A stretch of DNA of 37,291 bases from assembly GCA_027324255.1 (NCBI GenBank), contig DAHVTI010000164.1:1-37291 (forward strand). The letters are read 5' to 3'. The position numbers and the translations under genes were made by a program. Within the stretch, counting starts at the first letter, position 1. Each line of letters opens with the position of its first letter. Source of the stretch: Bryobacterales bacterium (GTDB lineage: Bacteria; Acidobacteriota; Terriglobia; Bryobacterales; Bryobacteraceae). This document shows positions 5,612 to 7,382 of this stretch, piece by piece. A model generated the notes under the pieces. It did no database searches, had not been told where the DNA came from, and saw nothing but the letters and a program-made list of their open reading frames with translations.

Positions 5612-5833
5612 AGGCCTACTCCGTTTGTGTTTTCGTACTACAGATCAACCTTAGTGTTTCGGAAAACAGGACTAAGACTTGCATCTGTTCCGAATTCAGA
5701 ACAGAATCGAATTAGGAGAGTGCGCGAACGGTCGGTCAAGTCAGGCCAACTTACTGGCAGATATTGACTTAGCGGCACGAACCCGATCCCGGATGGAGAT
5801 GCGGGAAGTCTGCGAAACGAACCTGATCATATC
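5612..5833. promoter_or_regulatory. Divergent intergenic region between pheA and XRE regulator
   Basis: This 222-bp stretch is clearly less GC-rich than its neighbours. It contains an inverted repeat CTTAGT-N15-ACTAAG (5650-5676) and the 18-bp palindrome described separately (5686-5703). No open frame in it looks like a gene. Promoters for both pheA and the regulator must lie here, but I cannot place their -35/-10 boxes with confidence. Confidence 0.6.
5686..5703. promoter_or_regulatory. Putative operator TGTTC-N8-GAACA, copy 1
   Basis: TGTTCCGAATTCAGAACA is an 18-bp near-perfect palindrome with 8 of 9 base pairs matching. The same outer half-sites and spacing recur at 7166-7183. It lies 131 bp before the XRE start and 75 bp before the pheA start. 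The adjacent regulator is the obvious candidate to bind it, which would imply autoregulation; this is inference. Confidence 0.6.
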
Positions 5834-6640
5834 ATGGAAGAGGCTGGCCAGAGACTGAAGCGGGCGCGGGAACGGCTAAGCCTCAAGTACCGGGATGTGG
5901 AGGAGTACAGCCAGCGGATCGCCGACCGGTACAGGAACAACGAGTTCAGCATCTCGATCAGCCGGCTGTCGGACTTCGAGAACCGGGGGGCGTTGCCAAG
6001 TATCTACAAGCTGTATTCGCTGTGCGCGATCTACCGGTTGGAGATGGGGGAGGTGATGCGGTGGTTTGGGGTGGATCCCTCGCTGATGCCGTCGGATGCG
6101 GCGGGGATCGCCTCGGAGCGGACGCATCTGGTCGGGTTCGGGCGGGAGGGGATGGCGAGGGTGATGTCGGGGGAGATCCAGGTGCCGTTGTCGCTGGACC
6201 CGGGGCTGGATTTACAGAAGACAACGTTCCTGAGCCGGTTCATCCAGAGCTGGGGCGTGCTGCCGCTGATGCTGGTAAGCGCTTATGAGCCTAAGAGTTA
6301 CCAGTATGCACTGATCGGCTCGGAGGACTGGTTCATGTTTCCCATCCTGCAGCCGGGCAGCCTGGTGCTGATCGACGACACGCAGAAGAAGGTGGCAGAG
6401 GAAGGCTGGAGCGGGGAGCACGACCGGCCCATCTACCTACTGGAGCACCGGGAGGGGTGGCTGTGCGCGTGGTGCGACGTGCGGGAAGAGCGGCTGATTG
6501 CGCTGCCGCATCCTTCCGGGCAGGACAGCCCGCTGGTGTTCACGGCGGCCGGGGAGGTGGAGGTGGTGGGGCAGGTGATAGGGGTGGCGAACCGGTTCCG
6601 GCCGATGGCTAGGCCGCGGAATCGCGCAGGAGGAGGGTGA
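5834..6640 (+). CDS. XRE-family regulator with inactive S24/LexA-like C-terminal domain
   Basis: This is a probable DNA-binding regulator of 268 aa. Residues about 5-78 form a helix-turn-helix domain of the Cro/C1 (XRE) kind, with a longer than usual loop containing RYRNNEFSISISRLSDFENR. Residues about 160-255 resemble the S24 peptidase fold of LexA and C1 repressors: DWFMFPILQPGSLVLID aligns with the usual D-S-M-x-P...G-D-LVLVD block, and EVEVVGQVIGVANRF is the typical end. The catalytic serine position is phenylalanine (F167), and no lysine is present where the VKR motif should be (around WLCAWCDV, 209-216), so self-cleavage looks lost and the domain may act as a dimerisation or ligand-sensing module. 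The gene converges on the next gene with a 32-bp overlap. Palindromes lie upstream and beyond its neighbour. Confidence 0.85.
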   Translation: MEEAGQRLKRARERLSLKYRDVEEYSQRIADRYRNNEFSISISRLSDFENRGALPSIYKLYSLCAIYRLEMGEVMRWFGVDPSLMPSDAAGIASERTHLVGFGREGMARVMSGEIQVPLSLDPGLDLQKTTFLSRFIQSWGVLPLMLVSAYEPKSYQYALIGSEDWFMFPILQPGSLVLIDDTQKKVAEEGWSGEHDRPIYLLEHREGWLCAWCDVREERLIALPHPSGQDSPLVFTAAGEVEVVGQVIGVANRFRPMARPRNRAGGG

Positions 6641-7043
6641 GGAGAACTTCCAGGTTAGCCTGGAAGAGTTCGTGCTCGGCGGGGTTGGCCCAGGCGGGGG
6701 CCATGCTGAGGTAGGGGCGGAGGCGCAACCAGTTCTCGGCCAAGGTCTTGCGGCTGGCGGGTAGGCTGGTGAAGTAGAGGGCGAGGTCGGCGGTTTGCTG
6801 CTCCAGGCTCATCTCGAGCCATTCGCGAAAGACGCGGCCGTGACTATCGCGCAGGGCGGAATCGGCGGCGACTTCCCCGAACAGCAGGGTGAGGCCGTGA
6901 TGCTCGTAGCGGCCGGTGTTGACGTTGCGGAGAGATGTCAGATAGACGATGCGGCCGTAGGTGGAAGGGATCTGGGCGAGAGTCCGCCTCCAAAGATCCT
7001 CAGCGGGGCGCCGTGCGTTCTCCATGCCGAGTTGCCTGAACAC
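6609..7043 (-). CDS. Conserved protein of unknown function next to XRE regulator
   Basis: I do not recognise this 144-aa protein. It looks soluble and mainly alpha-helical, with no signal peptide, no membrane segment and no clear catalytic motif. Notable sequence: LWRRTLAQIPSTYGRIVYL, YEHHGLTLLFGE, and a leucine-rich C-terminus. The ORF opens with GTG at 7043; the ATG at 7025 (M7, giving 138 aa) is an equally good start and neither has a strong ribosome binding site. It converges on the XRE gene with a 32-bp overlap and diverges from the small peptide gene, sharing the intergenic region that carries operator copy 2. That arrangement suggests a functional link with the regulator. Its codon pattern and lack of stops over 435 bp, with a coherent protein in only this frame, support it as a real gene. 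Confidence 0.72.
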   Translation of the reverse strand: MFRQLGMENARRPAEDLWRRTLAQIPSTYGRIVYLTSLRNVNTGRYEHHGLTLLFGEVAADSALRDSHGRVFREWLEMSLEQQTADLALYFTSLPASRKTLAENWLRLRPYLSMAPAWANPAEHELFQANLEVLLTLLLRDSAA

Positions 7044-7165
7044 TCTAGACGGGTGACCTCATGCGACCGGATGGCCCGGACACGAGGAGCCGGGCGAAGT
7101 ATCATTATGCTCCAAACGCGCCGCGGGAGGAAGCCTTTTCCGAATTCACTACAAACCCGCCGCCG

Positions 7166-7183
7166 TGTTCTGATTACAGAACA
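7166..7183. promoter_or_regulatory. Putative operator TGTTC-N8-GAACA, copy 2
   Basis: TGTTCTGATTACAGAACA has perfect 7-bp arms around ATTA. It shares outer half-sites and spacing with copy 1 at 5686-5703. A further partial site, TTCCGAATTCA, at 7138-7148 is identical to 11 bases of copy 1. The site is 83 bp upstream of the small peptide ATG and about 120-140 bp upstream of the divergent unknown gene. Binding by the XRE protein is inferred. Confidence 0.62.
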
Positions 7184-7265
7184 ATTCAGCCCAAAATCGC
7201 AAACCGGCAAAAATCCGGGTTACGCTTTGCTCGGAATCCAACATTCCACCAAAGGAGCAACCCCA

Positions 7266-7382
7266 ATGAAACGCCTTCTGGCCATCTTTCTTCTGTCCCT
7301 CGCCACGGTCACCCTGGCCGCCCCGGTCGCCCAGGACCCGGTCCCCAGCTGCCAGCCGTGCCCGGTTCCCCCCATCCGGTGA
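7266..7382 (+). CDS. Small secreted peptide, 38 aa
   Basis: This short gene appears in the ORF track only as the tail of a longer frame. It begins with ATG and is preceded by AAAGGAG about 8 nt upstream, one of the best Shine-Dalgarno sites in the window. The product has a lysine/arginine start (MKR), a hydrophobic core LLAIFLLSLATVTLA, and a likely signal-peptidase site near APVA-QD. The predicted mature part is only about 16 residues, rich in proline, with two cysteines in CQPC. There is no lipobox. The gene sits downstream of operator copy 2 and beside the XRE regulator. Function is unknown; an exported signalling, bacteriocin-like or metal- or redox-active peptide are all possible. Confidence that it is translated is moderate, resting on the SD plus signal peptide combination. 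Confidence 0.6.
   Translation: MKRLLAIFLLSLATVTLAAPVAQDPVPSCQPCPVPPIR

Follow-up and report, generated by a model that had tools for sequence, protein, structure and literature searches.

Does a 38-aa open reading frame downstream of an XRE-type regulator gene in a Bryobacterales genome encode a genuine product, and if so, what might so small a peptide do? The frame lies in a stretch of 37,291 nucleotides (the window; contig DAHVTI010000164.1 of assembly GCA_027324255.1), and the original prediction took it for the gene of an exported peptide, controlled by an operator that the regulator gene has as well. Bacillota are well known for signalling by peptides; the Acidobacteriota, to which this genome belongs, are a major, little-understood soil phylum. 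The features of the locus are collected in Table 1.

Conservation of the small gene and its neighbourhood

When the 38 residues were searched against 150 family genomes with tblastn, the matches adjoined orthologues of XRE, also in tandem arrays; in its own genome the peptide gene has one copy. An XRE orthologue is present in 87 of 101 family genomes. Its neighbourhoods, taken from the family genomes plus named records, have a family-wide gene order of prephenate dehydratase (−), XRE (+), ORF144 (−), peptide gene or genes (+), TM263 (+), ORF171 (+), an SprT-like gene (−) and FabH (+). The named relatives are Bryobacteraceae/Bryobacterales, the nearest being a Paludibaculum assembly and an unclassified Acidobacteria assembly with 68% XRE identity.

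For the conservation count we used 128 distinct XRE loci, each with at least 900 bp past XRE, and a finder that looks for small ORFs that begin with basic and hydrophobic residues and carry P-x-C..C. The finder was positive at the syntenic site in 103 of the 128 loci (in L227 and L243 it scored a Cys-rich ORF of another type as the peptide), compared with 0 matches on the minus strand, 1 in reversed sequence, 0/117 upstream and 1/103 downstream. Seventeen of the 25 loci scored empty under this length-limited finder carry long polyproteins, and the peptide is at the syntenic site in 120/128 loci once such precursors are counted. Occupying the same place in 103–120 of 128 loci, with 0–1 matches in the controls, the ORF is not a chance occurrence. 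Related genomes were found to conserve the start and the hydrophobic leader and, in most loci, the cysteines; with start, hydrophobic leader, core and operator all conserved among relatives, the small ORF proposed originally is a real gene. Most members of the peptide family are shorter than 60 residues, and the family is easily overlooked. Another family of the same class shows the combination too: its XRE orthologues occur with a peptide and TM263 (L264–L267, L269), the peptides being of a looser, two-cysteine type.

Of the remaining neighbours, ORF144 runs into the 3' end of XRE, and its intergenic operator region is also that of the peptide gene. It matched no Pfam or NCBIfam family above cut-off, ORF171 matched no family in either collection, and the neighbours tested against PADLOC gave no match. 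We rejected a defence or phage origin, PADLOC returning nothing and PHROGs only sub-threshold matches (E 0.04–0.07). Two variations in the neighbourhood were also observed. The Cys-rich ORF of L227 and L243 (~67 aa, ending ...WYYCGWANGWTYCCN) is predicted to be exported and lies 124–159 bp past XRE. In most genera (L068–L071 too), XRE is set apart from the prephenate dehydratase gene by ~500 bp of additional sequence, which is absent from the window's genus.

Table 1. Coordinates of the features at the peptide locus, numbered from the first base of the window
Feature	Position	Strand	Basis or occurrence
Operator TGTTCNGANTNCNGAACA (TGTTCCGAATTCAGAACA) ahead of XRE gene	5686-5703		exact palindrome; site in 124/127 family loci
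XRE-type regulator, 268 aa, N-terminal HTH, C-terminal LexA/UmuD'-like fold	5834-6640	+	profiles, AF2, Foldseek
ORF144, convergent with XRE, divergent from peptide gene	6609-7043	-	in 91/99 loci
Possible degenerate second operator TTTTCCGAATTCACTACA, 30 bp upstream of peptide operator	7136-7153		3 mismatches
Operator TGTTCNGANTNCNGAACA (TGTTCTGATTACAGAACA) ahead of peptide gene	7166-7183		exact palindrome; equivalent in ~83% of loci
Inferred -10 TACGCT of peptide promoter, no -35	7221-7226	+	TANNNT at fixed offset
Shine-Dalgarno AAAGGAG, 8 bases ahead of peptide ATG	7251-7257	+	sequence
Peptide precursor, predicted exported, single unit, 38 aa MKRLLAIFLLSLATVTLAAPVAQDPVPSCQPCPVPPIR	7266-7382	+	ATG start
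Core PVPSCQPC of window peptide	7338-7361	+	sequence
TM263, seven-helix membrane protein, cytoplasmic C-terminal helix	7538-8329	+	AF2 mean pLDDT 90.3
ORF171, one N-terminal hydrophobic segment	8424-8939	+	61/99 loci by tblastn

The core and its repetition in polyprotein precursors

The units of one genome have in common a core of 8 residues, PxPxCxPC, with a mean identity of 0.986 within a genome and 0.66 between genomes, and 84 distinct core 8-mers occur among 99 loci. Positions 1, 3, 5, 7 and 8 are P, P, C, P and C in 95–99 of the 99 loci, a fixedness partly built in by a search pattern that demands C-x-P/L-C. The variable sites are positions 2 (mostly W/L/I/V/F), 4 (mostly polar) and 6 (mostly F/L/Y/N/W). 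The original prediction described a 16-residue mature tail; the actual tail may differ from that length, and the conserved unit comprises just ~8–11 residues (DPVPSCQPC in the window). A signal peptidase I site in the precursors is without statistical support, AxA-like cleavage sites being barely more frequent than in shuffles (84/120 = 70% vs 63%), and the leader might stay attached and anchor the product in the membrane.

After spurious second matches had been taken out by eye, 18 loci had 2–5 tandem peptide genes and 23 had 2–9 units in one ORF. The precursor of L148 holds nine units of the type ILPIPKCYPCEEPPFAGAEVAEAN, and others hold eight (L199), seven (L164 and L197) or six (L192). Units of TPTCWPGDKRCWP occur five times in L121 and four times in L120, L194 has four (SAAR-ILPLPECYPCEPDSR), and shorter multi-unit precursors are found in L079, L083, L090, L156, L165 and L220. 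Precursors contain anything from one to nine units, whose cores are closely alike and whose spacers vary freely. Cys-free units in the L102, L103, L107 and L111 precursors, for example EIPMPDPHSPN and DGPLPDPNSPN, indicate that cysteines, though common, can be dispensed with.

The units of one precursor have the same core in different codons, as in the three SIPIPSCYPC units of L220. When 54 pairs of tandem copies were compared, the 13 codons of the core region showed 134 synonymous versus 25 nonsynonymous codon differences, and the leader 276 versus 222. The synonymous excess in the core rules out recent duplication or assembly error as the cause, and judged by these codon counts the core is under purifying selection between copies. 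Cores that are alike within a genome and unlike between genomes form the pattern that a recognition code would give.

A shared operator, the XRE regulator and a linked membrane protein

The two exact copies of the palindrome TGTTCNGANTNCNGAACA listed in Table 1 are the only ones in the window, where up to three mismatches yield 9 matches against 1.4 expected. In the whole of its own genome (6.17 Mb), a slightly looser operator pattern recovers one further locus only, and allowing one mismatch adds three more single sites. A weight matrix trained on the XRE promoter sites (cut-off score at least 4) places a site ahead of the peptide gene in 83% of loci, compared with 0.3% of shuffled sequences, mostly 98–130 bp ahead of the start. 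The palindrome that the original prediction had noticed at both promoters is thus a conserved operator. In the sister family the operator lies ahead of the peptide in 3/6 loci and ahead of XRE in none.

Promoter geometry suggests how the operator is used. At the peptide promoter a TANNNT element lies 55–56 from the operator start in 86/102 loci, and at XRE promoters the -10 is mostly at 58–59; a scan of the peptide promoters for a -35 found none above chance. This puts the centre of the operator at about -60 from the inferred start. Class I activators bind at that distance, and from this placement the XRE and peptide genes are both predicted to be activated by XRE. For the window the prediction of self-activation is weaker, because the -10 of its XRE gene is off the usual operator offset. 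Given the fixed -60 geometry, a repressor site is less likely. This probable activator geometry, the polyproteins, the tandem copies and TM263 had all been missed in the original prediction.

Operators were also observed before other genes. In eleven loci from different genomes, a short AT-hook-like gene (~64–81 aa; MDVxKMLAELRQER...GKRRGRPPAWM) is a third conserved operator target: L305 (1656–1863, −), on contig C140 of the window's own genome, and L295, L300, L301, L304, L306, L308 and L310–L313. The operator is doubled in some genomes, the copies being 84–87 bp apart, and this gene is likely a third member of the XRE regulon. Operator pairs precede other genes in L296 (2277/2362), L297 (2348/2433), L299 (2157/2242), L302 (1170/1256) and L303 (2311/2395), spaced 84–86 bp or about eight helical turns; some of the downstream products are predicted to be exported, and the pairs may point to additional targets that are bound cooperatively. 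In L314 (G055:C11) an operator stands at 2059, and a minus-strand ORF beginning 57 bp off encodes a predicted multi-helix membrane protein of 224 aa with a layout like TM263.

Sequence profiles of XRE gave weak HTH model matches only. In the AF2 model the HTH is confident and the C-terminal domain moderate (mean pLDDT 66.5), and Foldseek aligned the latter with LexA, UmuD' and CI at E 1e-5 to 1e-3 and target TM 0.6–0.7. We read the XRE alignments for a conserved serine at the GxSM position and found none, so that, as far as the alignments go, self-cleavage seems less likely. An EHR..CxWC..PHP motif is conserved in XRE, with CxWC kept in most orthologues; in the 17 loci without an intact CxWC match, mostly one cysteine is lost, and the peptide is not changed to match.

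The peptide is closely linked to TM263, which is single-copy in 8/9 genomes tested. Among 106 loci with room for both genes, 89 have both, 10 the peptide alone, 7 neither and 0 TM263 without the peptide (Fisher p 8e-7). Most genomes with a peptide-alone locus have TM263 elsewhere, and family genomes lacking XRE also lack TM263 in 9/12 cases. Three displaced TM263 genes have their own two-cysteine peptide, predicted to be exported, just upstream: L328 (G014), L327 (G023), whose core differs from that at the XRE locus, and L338 (G083), in a genome without a detected XRE. Upstream of other displaced copies (e.g. L333, L337) no peptide was recognised. TM263 evolves fastest among the proteins compared. 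Core and TM263 divergence showed no correlation beyond XRE divergence in a Mantel analysis, in which TM263 distances are near saturation.

TM263 matched nothing in Pfam or the PDB by sequence, and carries no transporter or protease signature, no kinase domain and no known output domain. Positive charges on its odd loops suggest an N-out, C-in topology. The best Foldseek match, rhodopsin/GPCR-like, is not significant (E 0.055, TM 0.45), and with that TM score, and with helix 7 of the window protein containing no lysine that could bind retinal, a rhodopsin was rejected. We regard TM263 as the best receptor candidate; less probably, it could be an immunity protein or a processing factor.

Candidate roles and known systems

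With moderate confidence, we propose that the product of the ORF gives rise to a peptide that acts outside the cell as an autoinducing signal, with XRE as the activator and TM263 as the candidate receptor. From the features above we infer the following chain of events. The leader would send the precursor via Sec into the periplasm, where proteases would free the core, around DPVPSCQPC in the window and perhaps loop-closed between its cysteines. The released core would be sensed at the membrane by TM263 and the signal passed on to XRE. By binding the operator ~60 bp upstream of the XRE and peptide start sites XRE would activate both genes, creating an autoinduction loop, with the AT-hook-like gene as its third conserved target. 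Species specificity would come from the three core positions that vary. Among the roles proposed originally, a secreted signal is the best supported, given the multi-unit precursors, the cores identical within and diversified between genomes, the linked seven-helix protein and the predicted autoinduction; metal binding is weakened by the four loci with Cys-free units, and a toxin-like role is less probable. A broader generalization, to a family-wide and in part class-wide hormone-like signalling system of cut polyproteins, a kinase-free seven-helix receptor, feedback by a LexA-fold activator and a three-position species code, is offered tentatively and seems to us rather doubtful.

A toxin-like role would take the form of a bacteriocin, an antimicrobial acting on a narrow range of close relatives, with TM263 as membrane immunity protein and XRE controlling production. 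A small predicted-exported peptide always near a fast-evolving membrane protein would suit it, as would the additional module of G023 (L327), whose core is a different one, but the locus is a core chromosomal one, at one syntenic site across the family and not patchy, and either of the two genes can occur without the other beside it. Many identical 8–11 residue units per precursor, to our knowledge unusual for bacteriocins, also argue against it. A search for a dedicated exporter or known immunity family found none, nor did the neighbours tested match Pfam, NCBIfam or PADLOC, and we consider the bacteriocin rather unlikely. Less probable still is a periplasmic metal- or thiol-active peptide, binding copper or zinc or buffering redox, with the CxWC of XRE sensing the inducing metal or redox state. 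Most units do have CxPC, XRE keeps EHR..CxWC..PHP, and tandem amplification would raise the dose; yet L102, L103, L107 and L111 have Cys-free units, CxWC loss in XRE (17 loci) and the peptide cysteines do not track each other, and neither variable residues 2, 4 and 6 nor within-genome identity is needed for metal binding. As the main reading, metal or redox action through peptide and XRE CxxC was rejected on the CxWC losses, the Cys-free peptides and the missing tracking.

The core could instead act inside the cell, or be re-imported, and bind XRE directly as in RRNPPA systems, leaving TM263 as transporter or processing factor. Divergence of core and XRE is correlated beyond that of the prephenate dehydratase gene (partial r 0.26, p 0.001) and tracks the XRE linker region most, and the LexA-like C-domain has an apparently unused active site, all of which favour direct binding. 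However, the correlation may reflect shared phylogeny, TM263 has no transporter or protease signature, and peptide–TM263 pairs occur away from XRE or without it, so that we judge this arrangement improbable. We hold out similarly little prospect for a housekeeping envelope peptide, such as a small membrane-anchored or cell-surface repeat protein with no signal function: family-wide conservation, AxA sites that are not enriched and a leader that could stay as an uncleaved anchor are consistent with it, but 1–9 units with tight cores and free spacers fit released peptides better, and control by a dedicated autoregulated factor also speaks against it.

If an extracellular signal is the correct reading, the 84 distinct cores (99 loci) would be a ready set of testable signal molecules, and the candidate receptor would have a build unlike the known bacterial peptide systems considered. 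We found no literature on such systems in Acidobacteriota, in a search mostly outside subscription journals. Pheromone propeptides with several copies are known from the Bacillota RRNPPA systems, Rap-Phr and relatives (PMC11343458, PMC9765709, PMC10075063). RRNPPA pheromones are secreted, matured by proteolysis and taken back up through an oligopeptide permease, to bind a regulator with a TPR domain. Our system resembles these in having a small precursor with a Sec-type leader by a regulator gene (here with ORF144 between them, on the opposite strand), tandem pheromone genes, several units per precursor and diversified cores. In contrast to RRNPPA, the regulator combines an HTH with a LexA-like domain and is not a TPR protein, which excludes the system from RRNPPA membership; it also has a linked seven-helix protein, a diderm host phylum, up to nine units and a PxPxCxPC core. 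Unlike Agr-type and two-component systems, the locus neighbours scanned include no histidine kinase or processing/export family (Pfam/NCBIfam). XRE is like LexA, CI and UmuD' (S24-like) proteins in its N-terminal HTH and, in a moderate-confidence model, its C-terminal fold, but its alignments show no conserved serine at the GxSM position, and its operator is placed as for an activator. TM263 has the seven helices of microbial rhodopsins and 7TM receptors, with N-out, C-in suggested by loop charges, although its fold falls short of theirs (TM-score 0.45, <0.5) and the window protein has no retinal lysine in helix 7.

The yeast alpha-factor precursor consists of one leader followed by short active-peptide repeats with diverged spacers. 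The analogy is one of precursor layout alone, with no homology claimed; if the signalling reading holds, the polyproteins described here would be a bacterial parallel to such multi-unit hormone precursors.
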